Virus record (IMG/VR): IMGVR_UViG_3300043446_001588
Span: 1-38,201 of that record
DNA length: 38,201 nucleotides
Source: a virus
Reading direction: 5' to 3' (one strand)
Shown here: positions 11,843-37,941 of the stretch, piece by piece
How the letters are laid out: the number at the start of each line of letters is the position of its first letter
Numbering within the stretch: position 1 is the stretch's first letter
The notes under the pieces: generated by a model
Told to the model about the DNA's origin: nothing
The model's input: the letters and a program-made list of their open reading frames with translations, nothing else
Database searches by the model: none
Made by a program: the position numbers and the translations under genes

Positions 11843-12343
11843 CTAGGTTTTTATAATGAAATTAAGAACAATGTACGGCTGTAGGTTGTTGTGGGACTGG
11901 GAGGCGTTTGCCGATTGATAATCGGTAAACTCCGAAGCAGTGGTTTGGTTGAAGTTAGAACCGGCCCCTGATGCAGCATTACAGGTACCGCTTGAGGTGT
12001 CGTTGTAATAGTCGCCGTATGAGTGGGTGTGGTTTCTAGTAGCGCTTTGAGCCGCTGTAAGTGTTTCGGTAGCAGTACCGCCCGTTGTATTGAGTGGTCT
12101 CCCGGCGCTGGCTCCATAAGGTACTCGGTTTGAGAGATTGGGAACAAGAAATGTTGGGGAAGAACTACCGAATGTATTACCGATGGCGCTGTATAGGGCC
12201 GGATACTTAGCGATGTCGTAGGCAGTACCATCGCAGTTCAACCAGCCTGTGGGTATTGTGCTACTGGTCCAAAGAGTAATAGTACCGGGCGGTATCTGTG
12301 TATTAGATGTGGAAATTGGCGAACCTACTAGTGGTCTACGCAT
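11843..12343 (-). CDS. tail collar domain protein, third of three tandem copies
   Basis: 166 residues. After a 15-residue leader comes the tail-collar fold signature: PPGTITLWTSSTIPTGWLNC, DGTAYDIAKYPALYSAIG and FLVPNLSNRVPYG. It continues with a His-containing turn (RNHTHSYGDYYND), and ends SHNNLQPYIVLNFIIKT. The 'GW-x-x-C-D/N-G-x-x-Y-x-x-x-x-Y-P-x-L-y' motif is the PF07484-type collar element, found in phage whiskers and fibre tips. Start and the preceding gene's stop overlap as TGATG. It is paralogous to the next two genes, indicating tandem duplication. Confidence 0.85.
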   Translation of the reverse strand: MRRPLVGSPISTSNTQIPPGTITLWTSSTIPTGWLNCDGTAYDIAKYPALYSAIGNTFGSSSPTFLVPNLSNRVPYGASAGRPLNTTGGTATETLTAAQSATRNHTHSYGDYYNDTSSGTCNAASGAGSNFNQTTASEFTDYQSANASQSHNNLQPYIVLNFIIKT

Positions 12344-12813
12344 CAGAACGCCCTCACAATAAAATTTAATGTGATATACGGTTGCATATTGTTGTGGGAT
12401 TCAGCAGCGTTGGCTTCGGTGACCCCACCGGTTGTCTTACTATGATCTGCGAAACCGTTTAGAGACGAGTCAGTGCTGCCACTATTAGCAAGATTCGTGG
12501 CTTGAGCGTAATGGTCGGTGTAGTAGTGCCTATGTGAAGGTATACCGGTTTGGGCCGGTGTAAGGGTAACTGTCTCTGCCCCGCCTGTGGTGAATAGTGA
12601 GGAAGTTCCCCCAAGCGGTACACGGGATCTCATGTCAGGAAGATTCCCATAAGGATAAACGGCATAAAGGGCCGGATATGCCGCTTGTGTTATCGCAGTA
12701 CCATCACACAATAGCCACCCTTTAGGGATTGTAGAAGAACCCCAAAGGGTGACAGAACCAACGGGAAGGTCTTGGATCTCATATGAAATAGGGCCGGGAG
12801 TAACGTCAGGCAT
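12343..12813 (-). CDS. tail collar domain protein, second of three tandem copies
   Basis: 156 residues, overlapping both neighbours by single-base TGATG junctions. It has the same plan as its paralogues: LPVGSVTLWGSSTIPKGWLL, then CDGTAITQAAYPALYAVYPY, then NLPDMRSRVPLGG and IPSHRHYYTDHY. It ends SHNNMQPYITLNFIVRAF. The middle is shorter than in the other two, lacking the 'FGSSSPTFLVP' type insertion. The closing 'PYI-x-LNFI' strand and the collar motif define the family. These short collar proteins resemble the free collar domains of whiskers rather than full-length fibres. Confidence 0.85.
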   Translation of the reverse strand: MPDVTPGPISYEIQDLPVGSVTLWGSSTIPKGWLLCDGTAITQAAYPALYAVYPYGNLPDMRSRVPLGGTSSLFTTGGAETVTLTPAQTGIPSHRHYYTDHYAQATNLANSGSTDSSLNGFADHSKTTGGVTEANAAESHNNMQPYITLNFIVRAF

Positions 12814-13322
12814 CAGAACGCCTTAATGATGTAGTTAATAATTAAATACGGCATTCTGTTTTCATGGGAACTAGTGGCATCAGCACTTGTATAGCCTGTA
12901 TATCTACCGGCATCAGCGCCGTTGTAATCGGAATACACAGCGCTTCCTGCTTCAATTGCGGAAGATGTGGTGGCGTATACGTCAGTAGTAGAGTGCCTAT
13001 GAGAGGGCATACCTGACTGTGCTGCGGTAAGAGTTACTGAGTCGACTCCCCCTTTTAGCCCTAAGTCGGTTCCTACAGTCGCTCCGGGTCCTACAGGAAC
13101 CACATTTCGTAGATCGGGAACTGCGAAATTGGCACCAGTAGTACTTCCATAAGTAACGCTAACAACGGAAAACAGTGCCGGATACAAAGTTCTTGTGTAT
13201 GTACTGCCGTTACATAGTAGCCAGCCGGTAGGTGCTGTAGTCCCTAGGTACATGACGATTGTACCGACAGGAATACTGTCAGGAAGATTAGAAGCGTACT
13301 GACCTACTTGCAGACTGTCCAT
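12813..13322 (-). CDS. tail collar domain protein, first of three tandem copies
   Basis: 169 residues beginning MDSLQVGQYASNLPDSIPVG. The collar element is TIVMYLGTTAPTGWLLCNGS, TYTRTLYPALFSVVSVTYG and FAVPDLRNVVPVGPG. GMPSHRHSTTDVYATTSSAI and the C-terminal ENRMPYLIINYIIKAF follow. No strong Shine-Dalgarno is visible before the ATG, which sits only three bases after the TGA of the upstream 120-residue gene, so reinitiation is likely. Together with the two downstream copies and the larger collar fibre at 17394-18980, the window encodes four collar-domain proteins. Confidence 0.85.
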   Translation of the reverse strand: MDSLQVGQYASNLPDSIPVGTIVMYLGTTAPTGWLLCNGSTYTRTLYPALFSVVSVTYGSTTGANFAVPDLRNVVPVGPGATVGTDLGLKGGVDSVTLTAAQSGMPSHRHSTTDVYATTSSAIEAGSAVYSDYNGADAGRYTGYTSADATSSHENRMPYLIINYIIKAF

Positions 13323-13692: not shown

Positions 13693-16600
13693 TTACCTTC
13701 CGAAGATTATGGCAGCCAAGATATTCTGATCGCTTTCAGTAATTATACCTTCGCCCTGATATCCCTGATATCCCTGAGTACCTTGAGTACCTTGAAAGCC
13801 CTGAGTACCTTGGTTGCCCTGAGTTCCCTGAAAACCTTGGTTGCCCTGAGAACCTTGATACCCCTGATTGCCTTGCGTTCCTTGGTTACCTTGTGAGCCT
13901 TGGACTCCTTGATACCCCTGATTACCTTGAGGTCCGGTATCACCTTGTGGTCCCTGTGCGCCAGTAGAGCCTTGGGTTCCCTGCGTACCTTGGTGACCTT
14001 GAACTCCTTGGGTTCCCTGAGTACCCTGATGTCCCTGCGGACCTTGGGCACCGGTATCGCCTTGTGTACCTTGAGCACCGGTACTACCCTGCGCCCCAGT
14101 AGCCCCTTGGTGACCTTGATTACCTTGTGCGCCAGTAGAGCCTTGTGGTCCGGCGAGACCTTGGGGACCGATATCTCCCTGAGGACCCTGAGCACCAGTT
14201 GATCCTTGAAAACCCTGTGGCCCTTGCGGCCCGGTATCACCCTGCGTACCCTGCGTACCCTGAGCGCCGGTATCTCCTTGAGTACCCTGATACCCTTGAA
14301 CGCCTTGGGTTCCCTGATTACCTTGGAAGCCCTGAGGACCTTGTGCACCGGTAGAACCTTGAGGACCATCGTCTCCTTGGGGGCCTTGTGCGCCGGTCGC
14401 ACCCGTAGCACCCTGCGGACCCTCATCACCTTGTGGGCCTTGGTCCCCCTGATTGCCTTGCGTTCCTTGCGGTCCCGAGTCCCCCTGAGATCCTTGTGCA
14501 CCAGTTGAACCTTGAGGACCCTGAACTCCGGTATCTCCTTGGAAACCTTGGGGACCATCGTCGCCCTGATGCCCTTGCGTGCCTTGATAGCCTTGATGAC
14601 CTTGTGACCCTTGTGCCCCAGTGAGGCCCTGTGGTCCGTCATCTCCTTGAGGACCCTGCGGACCTGTATAACCCTGAGGACCTTGTGCTCCTTCAGCGCC
14701 TTGGAATCCCTGAACACCATCAGAACCTTGTGGCCCTTGCGATCCCGTAGAACCCTGATGTCCTTGGAATCCCTGTGGTCCGTCGTTACCTTGGAAACCC
14801 TGAGGCCCCGTGTCACCCTGAGGACCAGTCTCACCTTGAGGACCAGTCTCACCCTGCGGTCCTTGTGAACCGGTACTGCCTTGCGGTCCTGTATTACCTT
14901 GTGATCCAGTGTCACCCTGAAAGCCCTGTGGACCGGTATCACCTTGGGACCCTTGGGGTCCTTGGGCACCTACATTTCCTTGCGCCCCGGTGTCGCCTTG
15001 ATAGCCCTGAGTACCTTGAGCGCCCTGTGGCCCTTCAATTGTGCCTACGTTGTCCCAGTTGGAGCCGTCCCATACATAGAGGTCGCCATCGACAAGATAC
15101 CCGTCACCGAGAGAGCCGGTCGGGTGGTCTGCGATAAGAGAGGCGTAATCGGGATACGAGCCGAGGATAGTTACAGAAGTACCGTCGTTACCTTGGTAGC
15201 CCTGAGGGCCTTGTACACCCTGCGTTCCTTGATCACCTTGGAACCCTTGAGGTCCTTGTGCTCCAGTATCACCTTGAAACCCCTGAGTACCTTGGGGTCC
15301 GGTGTCTCCTTGGTTTCCCTGAGTCCCCTGAACGCCTTGTGCTCCTTGTGCTCCTTGGTAACCCTGATTTCCTTGGGTTCCCTGTGGTCCTTGAGGACCG
15401 GTATCCCCGGTGCTTCCCTGTACACCTTGGTTACCCTGCGGACCACTTAGGCCCTGAGGTCCTTCGGAACCTTGAGCGCCGGTTACGCCTTGAAAACCCT
15501 GATGACCTTGGACGCCCTGAGGACCCTGTTCTCCGGTGTAGCCCTGATTGCCTTGGGAACCAGTGCTTCCCTGAACGCCTTGGTGTCCCTGATTTCCTTG
15601 GGCACCCTGAGGACCGGTATCACCTTGATACCCCTGAGGACCGATGTCACCGTCAACACCCTGATGACCTTGTACACCCTGAGCGCCTTGGAATCCTTGG
15701 TTACCTTGTGCACCGACAGATCCCTGTGAACCTTGCGAACCTGTGTCGCCCTGAAAACCTTGGTTTCCCTGAGGGCCTTGATATCCCTGATGGCCCTGAA
15801 AGCCTTGGGCACCAGTAGAACCAGTTAGACCCTGAACACCTTGATGTCCTTGGTTTCCCTGATATCCCTGTACACCCTGATTGCCTTGGTTGCCCTGAGG
15901 ACCGATCTCTCCTTGGAAACCTTGAAACCCTTGGTTGCCCTGAGGACCGGTATCACCTTGATACCCTTGTACTCCTTGGGGACCGGCATCTCCTTGGTTA
16001 CCTTGTGTTCCTTGAAACCCTTGGTAGCCCTGATTTCCTTGGTAGCCCTGCCAACCTTGGGGACCCGTTTCCCCCTGAAAACCTTGCGAACCAGTATTAC
16101 CTTGCGGACCCTGCTCGCCTTGTTCCCCCTGAACGCCTTGGACGCCCTGAGGACCTACGTCGCCTTGGAATCCCTGATGCCCTTGTACGCCATCAACGCC
16201 CTGATGGCCTTGAGCACCTTGAGCACCTACGTCGCCTTGTACGCCGGGTCCACCTTGTGAACCCTGAGCACCTACGATTCCTTGGTTGCCCTGATATCCC
16301 TGATATCCACGGCTTCCCTGTGGGCCTTGGGCACCAGTCGTTCCCTGCGATCCTTGGTTACCTTGAGCACCTTGGTTGCCGGTATAGCCACGAGGACCTT
16401 GGGTCCCCTGATTCCCTTGGAAACCTTGTGCTCCTTTTACGCCCTGATTACCTTGAGCGCCGTGCTGACCTGTGTCACCCTGATGTCCCTGAGGACCACG
16501 GGAACCCTGCTCACCCTGTTGACCTTCGGCCCCCTGCGCCCCCTGAGCACCTTGTGCCCCCTGATTGCCTTGAGGACCACGAGGACCCGACAGCGGGGCA

Positions 16601-16710
16601 GAGATCGTCCCAACGCTGCCGGTCTGAGGACCGGGTGTAATAATAATTTCAGCGGGCTGCTGTGGGTTGATCTGAGCCGGTGAGTTATTCGTTACCGGAA
16701 TGATTTCCAT
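13693..16710 (-). CDS. collagen-like fibre protein (1005 aa)
   Basis: Residues about 42-507 and 559-985 are uninterrupted Gly-X-Y triplets, roughly 155 and 142 of them. Gln is very common at Y (GPQGXQG, GNQG, GFQG). Other positions are Pro, Ala, Asn, Phe, Tyr, Thr and Asp. The two arms are separated by a globular 50-residue segment (TSVTILGSYPDYASLIADHP, DGYLVDGDLYVWDGSNW) that resembles a linker often found in phage collagen-like proteins and may nucleate the trimer. The N-terminal 41 residues and the last 20 (IITESDQNILAAIIFGR) are non-collagenous. A homotrimeric rod would be long: 900 residues at about 0.29 nm each gives roughly 260 nm if fully helical. Without prolyl hydroxylation its stability must come from Gln/charge contacts. 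Likely a head or neck whisker or side fibre. Confidence 0.93.
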   Translation of the reverse strand: MEIIPVTNNSPAQINPQQPAEIIITPGPQTGSVGTISAPLSGPRGPQGNQGAQGAQGAQGAEGQQGEQGSRGPQGHQGDTGQHGAQGNQGVKGAQGFQGNQGTQGPRGYTGNQGAQGNQGSQGTTGAQGPQGSRGYQGYQGNQGIVGAQGSQGGPGVQGDVGAQGAQGHQGVDGVQGHQGFQGDVGPQGVQGVQGEQGEQGPQGNTGSQGFQGETGPQGWQGYQGNQGYQGFQGTQGNQGDAGPQGVQGYQGDTGPQGNQGFQGFQGEIGPQGNQGNQGVQGYQGNQGHQGVQGLTGSTGAQGFQGHQGYQGPQGNQGFQGDTGSQGSQGSVGAQGNQGFQGAQGVQGHQGVDGDIGPQGYQGDTGPQGAQGNQGHQGVQGSTGSQGNQGYTGEQGPQGVQGHQGFQGVTGAQGSEGPQGLSGPQGNQGVQGSTGDTGPQGPQGTQGNQGYQGAQGAQGVQGTQGNQGDTGPQGTQGFQGDTGAQGPQGFQGDQGTQGVQGPQGYQGNDGTSVTILGSYPDYASLIADHPTGSLGDGYLVDGDLYVWDGSNWDNVGTIEGPQGAQGTQGYQGDTGAQGNVGAQGPQGSQGDTGPQGFQGDTGSQGNTGPQGSTGSQGPQGETGPQGETGPQGDTGPQGFQGNDGPQGFQGHQGSTGSQGPQGSDGVQGFQGAEGAQGPQGYTGPQGPQGDDGPQGLTGAQGSQGHQGYQGTQGHQGDDGPQGFQGDTGVQGPQGSTGAQGSQGDSGPQGTQGNQGDQGPQGDEGPQGATGATGAQGPQGDDGPQGSTGAQGPQGFQGNQGTQGVQGYQGTQGDTGAQGTQGTQGDTGPQGPQGFQGSTGAQGPQGDIGPQGLAGPQGSTGAQGNQGHQGATGAQGSTGAQGTQGDTGAQGPQGHQGTQGTQGVQGHQGTQGTQGSTGAQGPQGDTGPQGNQGYQGVQGSQGNQGTQGNQGYQGSQGNQGFQGTQGNQGTQGFQGTQGTQGYQGYQGEGIITESDQNILAAIIFGR

Positions 16711-25592: not shown

Positions 25593-25955
25593 TCAGTCGT
25601 TGACGACAGTAGCGTTGAATCGCAGAATGCGGGTTTCGCTACCAGCGACACGCTCAAAAGTCGGATGGTCAGCCATTGCGCCCTGAACGAACTCCGAGAG
25701 TTCCATAGGGGCCTCAATCCACGTAGCAGAACCAACGTGAGCCCTCTCACGGAGGGTCTCCATCGGGGTCTTGAGCATGCCTGCCATGGTCTGACGACCA
25801 CGACCATCACCCTCAGTGTCGCCGTAAGCGCCACGACCGAATTCAAAAGGAATGTCGGTATCAGTAGCGACACCCTCTTCAAAGCGAAGGGGGCCACGAC
25901 GGGTGAGGTTCTCAGCGTAAGCGACCTCGTAACCAGTTTCGGGAGCGTAAGCCAT
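25593..25955 (-). CDS. hypothetical protein (120 aa)
   Basis: 120 residues starting MAYAPETGYEVAYAENLTRR and ending RFNATVVND. It has an AGGAG site before the ATG. It contains FEFGRGAYGDTEGDGRGRQT and a C-terminal beta/helix stretch MELSEFVQGAMADHPTFERV. No domain is recognised. It lies downstream of a TGTGCCATACT element that may be a promoter. Being well expressed by codon and ribosome site, it may be a structural or early accessory protein. Confidence 0.6.
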   Translation of the reverse strand: MAYAPETGYEVAYAENLTRRGPLRFEEGVATDTDIPFEFGRGAYGDTEGDGRGRQTMAGMLKTPMETLRERAHVGSATWIEAPMELSEFVQGAMADHPTFERVAGSETRILRFNATVVND

Positions 25956-27205: not shown

Positions 27206-27224
27206 AACTATTCTACCTGAACCA
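27206..27224. repeat. 19-bp direct repeat, right copy
   Basis: AACTATTCTACCTGAACCA. Identical to 26842-26860. It covers the terminase 3' end and the -10 (TAGAAT) of the Arr-like gene. Confidence 0.85.
27210..27215 (-). promoter_or_regulatory. -10 TAGAAT overlapping the terminase stop
   Basis: On the minus strand the terminase TAG is the first half of TAGAAT, which lies six bases before the ATG at 27203. No Shine-Dalgarno. -35 is only weak (TTTGAA at a 15-base spacing). Confidence 0.4.
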
Positions 27225-28799
27225 CGGGGCTTCAAATGTCTCAACATATGGGGTTGTATCCGAAAGGGACATGGCGCAGGCGATAGCAAGTGAGTCCACA
27301 TAGTCATCATGGGAGTCACGCTCGTCAGGCGGGGCCTGAATGAGCATGTAGTTGCCCTTGATGACCTTCTCGGCATCTTCCATCTGCTGACGGAACCGTT
27401 TCCACGCCCTCGTACGTCGGGCCTTGGAGTGACCGGGATAAACGATCATTCGGCGCTGGAGAAGGGCGATCAGGTGCTTCCATCGTTCGCTCTGAGTCTT
27501 GATGTCTGACGATACGGGTACAACCTCGCATCGGTGCTCCAGTAGTCGCTGGAGGCGCTCAGCGACCGCTGAACCCATACCCTGAGCATCCACACCCACA
27601 TAGGCGATGTTGTAGTTCTCCAAGAAGTCCACGATTTGGAAGTACTGCTCTTCCCACTCGGTGTTGTGGATTTCCAACCAATTCAGGATTCGGTGTTCTC
27701 GGAATCCAGCGGGATCAGGATAATCCCAATCTACCCAACAGACTGTGACGACAGTAGAGTCCTTCACACGGGCGGGATCGATACCTACCACTACAGGCGT
27801 TCGATGCCACGACTTCACCAAAGGCATGGACGGGTCAGCCAAGAAGTCCAAGTCGTCCTCGGCTACCAGCATTCCTCGGTCAAGCATCCACTTTAGGTTG
27901 TAGGACATTTGGAACTCGTCCGAGTCCTCACCTAAACGCAACTTCTCTTGCTGAATGAACTTGGCGTAGTAGGGATTGTACTTTCCTACGGTTTTGTAAT
28001 CATATTCAAAGTGATTTGTTCTACTTCGGCGCTTCGTTGAACGCCTCTTGTTCAACTGGATCGCTTTGTAGAAATCGCCTTTGTGGAATGACGGGGTCCC
28101 GATCTTCACCATGGTTCCTGCGTAGGCGGCGAGCATGGGGTGGATCGACTTACGCACCATAGTGTCGTCGGCCTCTTGGGCCTCATCAATAACAACTAGG
28201 TGATACGAGGCACCTTCGATCTTGGCCCGAGGGTTAGCGGTCGACCGACGGCAGAGAGATCCTGATCGGAGGCGAATGACCTTGGATTTACCATCCACCC
28301 GTTCGTCTAGTTCGGGATCGCTCAAGAACTCCAGCGCATGCTCTGAAGTCAGTTTGTCCACAATACGGCCATGGAGGAAGTCCGACTGGCTATCGACTGG
28401 GGCAAAGATACCCACCCACAGACCTCGCTTGAACCGCTCAAGCATTTCAAAGGACATTGCCAACTTGGGAAGGATGACCATGCATCCTGAGACGATGACA
28501 GACAGGGTCTCAGATTTACCGCTCTGACGTGACCACAGGGCTGTGATCTCCTCGCCGTCCACCATCACGAGCGATTCAACGATCCGATAGGCAAGTTGCC
28601 TTTGGTAGGGACGAAGTTCTAGACCGGAGAATTCTTCACAAAACAGAATAATTCTTTTGATCAATTCGTCTACAAAGTTGGCAGTATCCTCATCAAGCCC
28701 GTAGTTGTCAAACTCTTCCTCGTCGTAGTCGTCCCTATCATCGTCGGGAATAAATGGTTCTTCGTCGTCGGGATTACCGAGGTTCTCGTAAGTTGGCAC
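27213..28799 (-). CDS. terminase large subunit
   Basis: 528 residues from GTG 28799, which lies seven bases after TATAGT with no Shine-Dalgarno (leaderless type). An upstream ATG at 28832 lies in the terminator hairpin and is rejected. The N-terminus is very acidic. The packaging ATPase has a Walker A-like WSRQSGKSET near residue 88 (deviant, with RQ instead of GxxG) and Walker B LVVIDEAQE near 200. The RNase H-like nuclease has VGIDPARVKDS near 338, VGVDAQGMG near 398 and HDDYVDSLA near 496, supplying the metal-binding Asps. It ends EAPWFR. It cuts and packages DNA into the procapsid through the portal. No separate small terminase is recognised. Confidence 0.95.
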   Translation of the reverse strand: MPTYENLGNPDDEEPFIPDDDRDDYDEEEFDNYGLDEDTANFVDELIKRIILFCEEFSGLELRPYQRQLAYRIVESLVMVDGEEITALWSRQSGKSETLSVIVSGCMVILPKLAMSFEMLERFKRGLWVGIFAPVDSQSDFLHGRIVDKLTSEHALEFLSDPELDERVDGKSKVIRLRSGSLCRRSTANPRAKIEGASYHLVVIDEAQEADDTMVRKSIHPMLAAYAGTMVKIGTPSFHKGDFYKAIQLNKRRSTKRRSRTNHFEYDYKTVGKYNPYYAKFIQQEKLRLGEDSDEFQMSYNLKWMLDRGMLVAEDDLDFLADPSMPLVKSWHRTPVVVGIDPARVKDSTVVTVCWVDWDYPDPAGFREHRILNWLEIHNTEWEEQYFQIVDFLENYNIAYVGVDAQGMGSAVAERLQRLLEHRCEVVPVSSDIKTQSERWKHLIALLQRRMIVYPGHSKARRTRAWKRFRQQMEDAEKVIKGNYMLIQAPPDERDSHDDYVDSLAIACAMSLSDTTPYVETFEAPWFR

Positions 28800-28806
28800 G
28801 GAAGTA

Positions 28807-28812
28807 ACTATA
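28807..28812 (-). promoter_or_regulatory. -10 TATAGT, 7 bases before terminase GTG
   Basis: Minus-strand TATAGT seven bases before the terminase GTG, without Shine-Dalgarno. It lies right after the T-rich tail of a hairpin, so terminator and promoter are back to back. Confidence 0.5.
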
Positions 28813-28852
28813 ACAAGGAAAGGCCGCCGCAAGCATTAAACCTGCGACGGCC
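28813..28852 (-). terminator. intrinsic terminator upstream of terminase
   Basis: Minus-strand stem GGCCGTCGCA / TGCGGCGGCC (nine pairs plus one G-T pair, 11-base loop), followed by TTTCCTTGTT. It would end transcripts from the leftward small-gene operon (29262 and beyond) just before the terminase promoter. Confidence 0.7.
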
Positions 28853-34631: not shown

Positions 34632-35111
34632 CTACCGAGACTTAGGCTCTTCTTGACCTTCAGTCACTGCATTCAGGAACGGATGCACTTTGCCGCCCTC
34701 CGTGCTTGTACGGTCAAAGTTCTGCACCGGAATAAGCATGCTTGGGTCCACAAGAGCCGCTGAGGCCACCCGATGGTGCCCGTGGGCAATAGTCGTGGGA
34801 GACAGGCTCCCTGTAACGTCTCTGCCGGTTTCGGCGTCATAGTCAAGCACCACCGTAGGATCTTCATTCTCTCCTAAGTGGTAAATGTTCACAGGAGTGT
34901 GTACGCCAGTGCTGCGAATGCTCTCCTCTAGACCCGAACGAGAAGCCTCATCGATCTTCTCTTCCCAAACGGCGTCATGGGGGCGTTGTTGACCAGTCTC
35001 AGAGTGCTGAGCGTCGTAAGGACTGATACCCATCTGACGCAACTCACCTGCTGGGATGAACATGCGTAATTGCTTGGGGTTTACATGCCGGGAGGCATTT
35101 CGTCTGCCCAT
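34632..35111 (-). CDS. ParB-fold-like protein, paralogue C (159 aa)
   Basis: 159 residues starting MGRRNASRHVNPKQLRMFIP. It shares the layout of the two genes near 37.5 kb: 'N-P-K-Q-L-x-x-F' at 11-18, AVWEEKIDEASRSGLEESIR and STGVHTPV (helix, 'I-x-x-x-G-V-x-x-P-V'), then AHGHHRVASAAL (GHHRV 111-115). The order matches the ParB N-terminal/sulphiredoxin fold, where G-x-R-R/H-R-x-x-A binds nucleotide. The C-terminus has an extra 45 residues. ParB-like phage proteins can be CTP-binding regulators or nucleases; activity cannot be told. ATG 35111 lies six bases after CATAAT, without Shine-Dalgarno. Confidence 0.7.
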   Translation of the reverse strand: MGRRNASRHVNPKQLRMFIPAGELRQMGISPYDAQHSETGQQRPHDAVWEEKIDEASRSGLEESIRSTGVHTPVNIYHLGENEDPTVVLDYDAETGRDVTGSLSPTTIAHGHHRVASAALVDPSMLIPVQNFDRTSTEGGKVHPFLNAVTEGQEEPKSR

Positions 35112-35365: not shown

Positions 35366-35665
35366 TCAAAGGCGTACGTCTCGCTCGTACGGATCGATAC
35401 CCTTATCCCGGTACTGAGCCATAGCAGAGTCGTGCATGCCTTGGAGATCTTCCTCTGAGAGGTTCTCGTTGACGTGCACCGTTCCCCACTGATTGTGCTC
35501 CTCAAGGCCGTCGGCCATGTTCATAGGAGGCTCATTTTCGGGGTGGCTCATGAAGCCTGCATGGGCCTCAAACGGAGCAATGAGAATGCTCCTGAGGGTA
35601 TTCTCCAGATCCATACGCCCGACCTTACGGCGGGGGTGGTCTCCGGTGTCGATTCCTCTAGCCAT
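35366..35665 (-). CDS. DTGDHP-tag protein 1 (99 aa)
   Basis: 99 residues. The N-terminus MARGIDTGDHPRRKVGR is nearly identical to those of two neighbours. After it comes an unrelated acidic/Met-rich helical domain (LENTLRSILIAPFEAHAGFM, HENLSEEDLQGMHDSAM type). It ends IDPYERDVRL. Start AAAAATGGCTAGAGG is shared in DNA with the next gene upstream. No domain is recognised in the C-terminal part. Shared N-terminus plus different body is the key feature. Confidence 0.65.
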   Translation of the reverse strand: MARGIDTGDHPRRKVGRMDLENTLRSILIAPFEAHAGFMSHPENEPPMNMADGLEEHNQWGTVHVNENLSEEDLQGMHDSAMAQYRDKGIDPYERDVRL

Positions 35666-35668
35666 TTT

Positions 35669-35935
35669 TCAGCCCATCCCAAACATGCTTTGTAGACCTT
35701 CAGGACCGGGGGAACCTTCAGAGGGACGGGGAGGGTTGCTGGTATGACCGCAATCATAGCAATCGTGTCCCCCCGCCGAAGATTCTTCGGTATTGTAGGA
35801 ACCGCAGTTATTGCACCGGGGGCCTTCGAACCCGCCCATCTCGGACCGCGACGTTGGGGTTACGGGGGCACCTGAGAAGGTATCCCTCCCCACCTTGCGT
35901 CCGGGGTGGTCTCCAGTATCTTTTCCTCTAGCCAT
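35669..35935 (-). CDS. DTGDHP-tag zinc-ribbon protein 2 (88 aa)
   Basis: 88 residues starting MARGKDTGDHPGRKVGRDTF. After the shared tag there is a Pro/Ser linker and a zinc-ribbon: RCNNCGSYNTEESSAGGHDC and YDCGHTSNPPRPSEG. Four cysteines (CNNC, CYDC) form the site. It ends GLQSMFGMG. The gene starts two bases after the stop of the 49-residue gene before it. Confidence 0.7.
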   Translation of the reverse strand: MARGKDTGDHPGRKVGRDTFSGAPVTPTSRSEMGGFEGPRCNNCGSYNTEESSAGGHDCYDCGHTSNPPRPSEGSPGPEGLQSMFGMG

Positions 35936-35937
35936 TT

Positions 35938-36087
35938 TTACTTATCCTTACTGTGCTTAGAGGCTTCAATAGCCTGAATCTGCTTTACTGCCTCGGCCTT
36001 CGTGTCGTGATGACCTAGGACTTTCCCAGTCCTCTTTAAGACAAGGTCAAACTGACCTTCTCCGCTTTTGCGGATTGAGTACGGCAT
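35938..36087 (-). CDS. small DUF2188-like protein (49 aa)
   Basis: 49 codons: MPYSIRKSGEGQFDLVLKRT, GKVLGHHDTKAEAVKQIQAI and EASKHSKDK. The pattern 'strand, strand, HDTKAEA, helix' is a beta-beta-alpha fold seen in DUF2188-type proteins and in small phage proteins with 'HDTxxEAxxQLxAI'. Its ATG is two bases after the previous stop; its TAA is two bases before the next ATG. Function is unknown. Confidence 0.7.
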   Translation of the reverse strand: MPYSIRKSGEGQFDLVLKRTGKVLGHHDTKAEAVKQIQAIEASKHSKDK

Positions 36088-36088
36088 T

Positions 36089-36355
36089 TCAATAGTCGTC
36101 GTCTTCAGGATCGTGGTACCAGTTGGTCAAGTCGCCAATAGTACGATCCCAGTCAGGATGGTCGGCCTCCATACCTAGATGCTGGTTTGCAAAAAGTGCC
36201 GCAGCATCTTCAATGGCGAACGAAGAATCGTCAGGAGTTACACCAGCCTTACGAACCGCATAATCAGCGAATTCGTCAGCATGACGAGGGGCGCTAAACC
36301 GTCCACGATCTACCCGACGATGAGGGTGATCGCCGGTATCGTGTCCACGAGACAT
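36089..36355 (-). CDS. DTGDHP-tag protein 3 (88 aa)
   Basis: 88 residues. The N-terminus MSRGHDTGDHPHRRVDRGRF is the third copy of the shared module. The rest (DEFADYAVRKAGVTPDDSSF, AIEDAAALFANQHLGMEADH and an acidic end DPEDDDY) is a helical, acidic domain unlike the other two. An AGGG site precedes the ATG. It is part of the leftward small-gene operon. Confidence 0.65.
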   Translation of the reverse strand: MSRGHDTGDHPHRRVDRGRFSAPRHADEFADYAVRKAGVTPDDSSFAIEDAAALFANQHLGMEADHPDWDRTIGDLTNWYHDPEDDDY

Positions 36356-37159: not shown

Positions 37160-37525
37160 CTAGTCCCACTCAACAGGAATATAGGTATCAGGATTGATGT
37201 CGGCTTGAGAGAACACCCTATGATGTCCTTCCATCAGTACCTTGTCGGGATCGCCCTTCGGACGCTTCGATCCATATAGGTCATCACTGTGTACCAGCGT
37301 CACAGGCTGCTTCACACCGTGCTTCTTGATGTCCTCATACAGCGAGTCATCTCCGTACTTCGACTCCCATAGTTTGTTGGAGCGGAACTCATCGAACGTC
37401 ATTGAGTCGCCCTCATCGGGATATTCTTCGAAGTCGATGTGACCGGTCTTTGCAGGGTCCGCTAGATCCCCCGCCCGTTCGAACAGGGTCAACTGGTTGG
37501 GGTTGATGACGTGTTCTGCGCCCAT
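37160..37525 (-). CDS. ParB-fold-like protein, paralogue B (121 aa)
   Basis: 121 residues from ATG 37525, overlapping the upstream stop (TGATG). It starts MGAEHVINPNQLTLFERAGD. It shares GDDSLYEDIKKHGVKQPVTL and LMEGHHRVFSQADINPDTYI with paralogue A. GHHRV lies at 100-104. The order of elements is that of the ParB N-terminal/sulphiredoxin fold. The end 'IPVEWD' is a conserved last strand. It was probably copied from its neighbour by tandem duplication. Confidence 0.72.
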   Translation of the reverse strand: MGAEHVINPNQLTLFERAGDLADPAKTGHIDFEEYPDEGDSMTFDEFRSNKLWESKYGDDSLYEDIKKHGVKQPVTLVHSDDLYGSKRPKGDPDKVLMEGHHRVFSQADINPDTYIPVEWD

Positions 37526-37941
37526 CACTTATCCGACCATTTCACTGGTACCCACGCCTTGGGGTTGATATCGGCCTGTGCGTAGACCCGGTGATGACCG
37601 TTATACAGCATCCCCCGACTGGGAACGTATCCGTTCTCCCTGTATAGAGAATCCTGTACCCTAGAATAACCTTTACCACGAAGAGTATTTACCTCTACAG
37701 GCTCTTTAACGCCCCGCTTGGCAATGTCGTTGTAGAGGGTGTCTTCCCCATGGAGGCCCTCCATGTGGTTCTCATCCATCTTCTGATTCCAAGTGTGCTC
37801 TTGGGCTTCCTCGGGCCAGTATCCGTACTCCAACTGAGTCGCATAAGCGTCGTTGGGATAGAACTTACCGGGATCGGCCAAGTCTTCAGCCCGCTCAAAT
37901 AGCGTCAGTTGGTCGGGGTTTATTACATGCTTTGCACCCAT
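37525..37941 (-). CDS. ParB-fold-like protein, paralogue A (138 aa)
   Basis: 138 residues starting MGAKHVINPDQLTLFERAED. It has the shared TLYNDIAKRGVKEPVEV and MLYNGHHRVYAQADINPKAW (GHHRV 115-119). It carries a 20-residue insertion (YATQLEYGYWPEEAQEHTWN) compared with paralogue B. An AGGGG site is placed before the ATG. The match to the ParB/Srx fold is by motif order. Whether it binds CTP, cuts DNA or simply binds DNA cannot be decided from sequence alone. Confidence 0.72.
   Translation of the reverse strand: MGAKHVINPDQLTLFERAEDLADPGKFYPNDAYATQLEYGYWPEEAQEHTWNQKMDENHMEGLHGEDTLYNDIAKRGVKEPVEVNTLRGKGYSRVQDSLYRENGYVPSRGMLYNGHHRVYAQADINPKAWVPVKWSDK

Follow-up and report, generated by a model that had tools for sequence, protein, structure and literature searches.

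A peptide of 17 residues (consensus M-[AP]-R-G-x-D-T-x-x-H-P-x-R-x-V-x-R) forms the N-terminus of 107 different small proteins that are encoded in public viral contigs of one lineage of contractile-tailed phages. To judge from the sequences, this leader moves between proteins as a peptide module of its own, on which selection acts at the protein level; it is not a part of one folded domain. We base this verdict on its sharp border, the reversed controls, the variation of its codons, the existence of homologous bodies without it, and gene-swap junctions that fall within the leader codons. Very probably, the leader acts as a sorting or docking signal of the protein. Literature searches found no published description of it.

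Leader genes of the window

The window, by which we mean the whole 38.2-kb stretch of DNA analysed (an IMG/VR virus record), carries contractile-tail genes, with sheath, baseplate hub, major head protein, portal and terminase. Three of its small genes, A, B and C (Table 1), share the N-terminus M[AS]RGxDTGDHPxR[KR]V[GD]R, while their bodies are unrelated. An earlier note on this DNA had described these 17 shared residues on three unrelated bodies, and this observation extends far beyond the window, to the full set of 107 proteins. The note was also right that two of the three starts have the surrounding DNA in common (AAAAATGGCTAGAGGA). A search for degenerate codons that spell DTGDHP gave three occurrences in the window and none in 100 dinucleotide-preserving shuffles. 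The four-Cys zinc ribbon that had been proposed for gene B stands only in part: the CxxC...CxxC arrangement is present, but the match to a zinc ribbon is weak (E 0.0028, under Pfam's cutoff).

Table 1. Positions of the leader genes and other features discussed in the text, and patterns of the leader classes. Positions without a prefix refer to the window.
Feature	Position or loci	Strand	Description
Gene A	35366..35665	(-)	99 aa; leader MARGIDTGDHPRRKVGR followed by an acidic body
Leader of gene A	35615..35665	(-)	17 codons
Gene B	35669..35935	(-)	88 aa; leader MARGKDTGDHPGRKVGR followed by a four-Cys zinc-ribbon-like body
Leader of gene B	35885..35935	(-)	
Untagged gene within the run of genes A to C	35938..36087	(-)	49 aa; PHROG 3684/6742, function unknown
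Gene C	36089..36355	(-)	88 aa; leader MSRGHDTGDHPHRRVDR followed by an acidic body
Leader of gene C	36305..36355	(-)	
Terminase large subunit	27213..28832	(-)	47-49% identity to BRock/GiJojo-type phages
Conserved gene in the terminase-portal interval	25593..25955	(-)	120 aa; lineage marker
Carriers of the NPxQLxLF / QLxMF module	34632-35111, 37160-37528, 37525-37941; L086 18646-18855, 18958-19794; L339 8330-8803, 9921-10403		
Leader class T1			RGxDTxxHPxRxVGR
Leader class T2	L177-L256		RRDHFxxGxG
Leader class T3	L177-L256		NHRGNxVG / HDHRMNPVGEPHLNK; 33 proteins
Leader class T6	L177-L256		GHRDDGTxxEDKAHHPGRxVSR
Leader class T7	L177-L256		FRGxRxT

The tagged genes of the window look real, because both the body and the tag of gene B and the body of gene A recur in the sister virus G005. 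Gene B has a tagged orthologue there with 65% identity, in which body and tag are conserved (L087 5460-5747); the homologue of the gene A body (L086 18023-18298) is untagged. Genes A, B and C matched no PHROG, and the PHROG and domain searches found no known relatives of the gene C body. The untagged gene within their run was suspected by eye to be homologous to the body of a tagged protein of locus L083; tblastn gave no match between the two.

Elsewhere in the window, three tandem tail-collar-type genes (11843-12343, 12343-12813 and 12813-13322) match the same PHROG families and adjoin the gene of a 1005-aa collagen-like tail fibre (13693-16710). A second N-terminal module, roughly NPxQLxLF or QLxMF, occurs on small ParB-like and other proteins with different bodies (Table 1); by eye, it resembles the beta-clamp-binding pentapeptide of bacteria.

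Distribution within one phage lineage

The leader was sought by degenerate-codon scans of viral contigs and then by scoring all start codons of 36 records with a profile of 17 positions. The profile gave 67 matches above 20 bits in these metagenomic fragments, whose start sites are inferred, against none in reversed sequence. This amounted to 62 tagged genes in 33 viral records, with bodies in 32 clusters. The profile was trained on the same matches that it then counts; the risk of circularity is countered by the empty reversed control and by a second sample, for which a neighbouring gene was the only criterion.

The neighbouring gene encodes a strongly conserved protein of 163 aa, named GVHK for its motif (e.g., L168:6896-7393 and relatives). 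It is encoded in at least 585 viral contig stretches and adjoins a SpoVS-family gene (PF04232, E 9e-20). GVHK itself had no database match, and its AlphaFold2 model is disordered (pTM 0.17). Tagged genes usually lie just downstream of GVHK and upstream of p101, a gene of 101 aa, in a wider locus that runs from SpoVS- and RusA-like genes to the genes p155 and p160. Among the best 80 of the at least 585 GVHK loci, picked regardless of the leader, 42 had one to five tagged genes and the others had none. This sample contained 102 starts above 20 bits, compared with none in reversed sequence, and all matches above 14 bits were on GVHK's own strand. The terminase-portal interval is a second, rarer site, with tagged genes in three of 80 loci that were selected through a marker gene of the head module.

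Nearly all tagged records have markers of one phage lineage, whether terminase, portal, head protein or the neighbour genes of the GVHK locus. The terminase of the window is 47-49% identical to those of the Streptomyces phages BRock, GiJojo, LuckySocke, Alone3 and pSt2308, with BRock and GiJojo as the nearest named phages, and an actinobacterial host is therefore likely for the window phage. These five phages belong to the same lineage by terminase and have the GVHK and p101 genes; in GiJojo, the GVHK locus encodes gp164-171. They differ, however, in that the scanned parts of four of their genomes (GiJojo, LuckySocke, BRock and pSt2308) contain no leader of the type described above, hereafter T1. 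Nor did the strict pattern find T1 in two long relatives, which measure 107 and 117 kb. Because of these absences, gene content marks T1 as a common but accessory trait.

A tblastn search of named phages with a tagged protein or a 22-residue leader as query gave no matches, and in 257 Gb of bacterial genomes, nothing matched a stricter leader pattern. The sole stretch matched in these genomes, from Pseudonocardia (L144), was a chance match and not a leader. A looser pattern, M.R..D.G.HP.R.V, produced many chance matches (most of L034-L049).

The leader as a module and its exchange between bodies

Conservation ends where the leader ends. In a comparison of 43 body clusters, residue 17 still carries 2.7 bits of information, whereas no position from residue 18 on reaches 0.9 bits. 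Among the cluster representatives, residues 1, 4 and 13 are invariant, and H10 and P11 are invariant or nearly so. Leaders have an average charge of +2, and bodies a median of -2. In the AlphaFold2 model of one tagged family, which is of modest quality, residues 1-41 have a pLDDT below 50 and are followed by a beta body at roughly 67-82. The leader is N-terminal almost without exception. One of the two exceptions is a small protein of virus G010, encoded just downstream of a tagged gene (L100:19452-19622), of which the C-terminus is a half-leader (ENDPNRQVGRERFGG, where DPNRQVGRERF corresponds to the second half of the leader). The other is a homologue in locus L183 (at about 8100), the sole case of an internal leader, which seems to lie ~20 residues past the first Met (RPKGTDTRNHPNRRVGR).

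The search for further unrelated C-termini, as the earlier note had suggested, yielded 43-49 clusters of bodies that carry the tag, a number that varies with the threshold from 28 to 55. The bodies are mostly 40-120 residues long and conserved between species, have no core residues in common, and include zinc-ribbon-like and beta-rich kinds as well as one protein of 537 aa. They matched no known family with confidence when 42 representative tagged proteins were compared with Pfam, PHROGs and NCBIfam, and Foldseek compared a tagged body with the PDB without finding a match below E 0.1. The alternative that the tag is a conserved regulatory peptide finds no support, since the bodies are coding sequences that differ in kind and are conserved.

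The 537-aa protein (L157:17543-19156) is of low complexity, rich in Lys, Arg and Ala, and without a confident family match; nearly all other tagged proteins are small. Some bodies share short motifs. The PRP-type motif DxxPxxGIPRP is found in 23 proteins of loci L177-L256, and the C-terminal motifs DSGFSExE and DPWDPED in six and four proteins of these loci, respectively; the carriers are mostly tagged proteins, and none of the three motifs occurred in antisense or reversed sequence. The bodies themselves thus seem partly modular.

Homologous bodies were also found without a leader or with other short leaders, and no fixed body was always paired with the leader. One body starts with MTTDHRGNSVGGNHRSTPR, of class T3, in G013, G020 and G022 and with MPNGEDTRFHSGRLVGR in G027 and G035; another starts with MPNNHRGAYIAPNHR in G033 and with MARGEDTRNHPGRRIYR in G029, and further such pairs exist. 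Hence the idea of a short tag on unrelated cargo, from which the earlier note had concluded a targeting or docking signal, survives the possibility that the tag belongs to a single fixed domain. In the GVHK loci, the number of unique proteins was 104 for T1, 33 for T3, seven for T2, and five each for T6 and T7, while none of these classes appeared in antisense or reversed sequence. Several T6 members end in HHPGRxVSR, which equals the second half of T1; T1 therefore looks bipartite.

The locus is plastic, and bodies are gained and lost between close relatives. The genomes G027 and G035 differ by a gene replacement, next to which they are 94% identical; at either end of the replaced segment, their alignment breaks no further than 15-20 bases into the leader codons. 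In G029, the upstream DNA and the leader are duplicated and common to two different bodies. These two cases indicate that the leader codons act as recombination joints. T4-type mobile promoter cassettes, short repeated segments at gene starts, likewise serve as joints for the exchange of small genes. In contrast to these non-coding promoters, the joint described here is coding and is kept as a peptide rather than as DNA. At residues kept in 70-100% of the clusters, codons differ in 36-74% of pairs, where 50-79% would be expected from the codon usage of the bodies. As judged from this comparison, in which synonymous codons vary almost freely at retained residues, selection acts on the leader peptide. 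The leader did not show the conservation of DNA sequence that marks a shuffling cassette.

What the leader may do

We propose that the leader of 17 residues is an independent unit at the N-terminus: an address peptide that is short, basic and probably unfolded. The phage would fuse it to many unrelated small accessory proteins, all of which would then be taken to one phage-made place. By analogy with the internal proteins of T4, this place would most likely be the assembling head, where the tagged proteins could be packaged with the DNA, to be injected and to act on the next host, for instance as inhibitors of its defences. Turnover of the bodies with retention of the leader would then arise because injected cargo acts on the next host. 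We infer that the cargo consists of effectors. The explanation as a whole, from autonomous address leader to a shared phage-made destination, likely the head, and injected cargo, stands in our judgement in even balance.

The internal proteins of T-even phages are diverse, with only a packaging leader common to all; they are injected and inhibit restriction enzymes (PMC3012670; PMC9391042; PMC12373910). Those of T4 are diverse defence inhibitors that have only the leader in common (PMC3012670; PMC12373910). The phages described here resemble T4 and its IpI-III in that a short N-terminal leader is all that non-homologous small proteins share, and in that hypervariable loci outside the head module gain and lose bodies. 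With SpoVS/GVHK on one side and p101 on the other, the main locus is outside the head module, which counts against the virion as destination. However, the T4 genes ipII and ipIII adjoin the lysozyme gene, also outside the head module, and this position is therefore not a strong argument against packaging.

The two systems also differ. The T4 leader (MKTYQEF...) is unrelated to T1, and the T1 profile scores -45.5, -35.5 and -45.8 bits on the N-termini of ipI, ipII and ipIII. T4 has one leader, whereas here several classes alternate on the same bodies and a locus can have up to five T1-tagged genes. Packaging, for the phages described here, would follow by analogy. Furthermore, no maturation protease was recognised: the tested head proteins of the window had no match to a prohead protease, none is annotated in the GiJojo head module, and the 43 body clusters showed no conserved cleavage-like site past residue 17. 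The papers searched yielded no virion proteome for any phage of the lineage. In view of the dissimilar leader and of the negative searches for a protease and a proteome, we give the virion, which the T4 analogy suggests as the destination, slightly less than an even chance.

The main rival explanation is that the leader docks small proteins to some machinery of the phage or the host within the infected cell, such as the nucleoid, RNA polymerase, or a replication or lysis complex, and that these proteins never enter the virion. This would suit a main locus that adjoins SpoVS-family and RusA-like resolvase genes away from the head genes, a basic leader that could bind nucleic acid, and several interchangeable leader classes. 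Yet, no partner was identified. The similarity of leaders within a genome is not above chance (it is reached by 223 of 2000 shuffles) and thus does not point to a co-evolution of the leaders of each genome with a single partner. Moreover, a fixed leader with variable cargo in a hotspot of gain and loss fits delivery at least equally well. We consider intracellular docking rather unlikely.

Alternatively, the tagged proteins might descend from a single ancestral small protein, with bodies that diverged past recognition and the leader as the conserved part of one family. Many bodies are indeed short and acidic, some have the PRP-type motif, and as few as 28 clusters remain under permissive single linkage (E up to 0.1). 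However, the abrupt end of conservation at residue 17, homologous bodies with other leaders or none, the range from zinc-ribbon-like and beta-rich bodies to the 537-aa protein, and gene swaps that break within the leader all disfavour a common ancestor, which we regard as improbable. Another alternative is that the leader codons are mainly a DNA-level joint for the exchange of small genes, in which case the peptide itself would do nothing. The G027/G035 breakpoints and the G029 duplication would agree with this, but in a selfish DNA joint the amino acids would not survive codon change, whereas here the residues are kept with synonymous positions near saturation; such a joint is very improbable. 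Finally, as in RiPP precursors, the leader might be recognised by an enzyme that modifies or cleaves the body as its substrate. This would agree with a conserved leader and a variable C-terminal part, but is hardly credible for bodies of this length, conserved between species and without common core residues, in neighbourhoods where those that were read held no leader-binding or modifying enzyme.

Returning to the address peptide, we tentatively suggest a broader scheme, in which T1, T3, T6 and T7 are interchangeable addresses that sort dozens of small effectors to one phage structure, and in which the address codons double as joints for cargo swaps, in a code independent of that of T4.

Should the leader indeed serve for packaging or docking, a simple profile would list more than 100 candidate accessory effectors in a lineage of phages that is widespread, as the number of GVHK stretches attests, yet nearly unstudied. 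In that case, these phages would also represent a second, independently evolved case of the internal-protein strategy of T4, and their injected or host-takeover proteins could be found by their label. The leader also shows that modules can be exchanged at the protein level with a residue-precise border.
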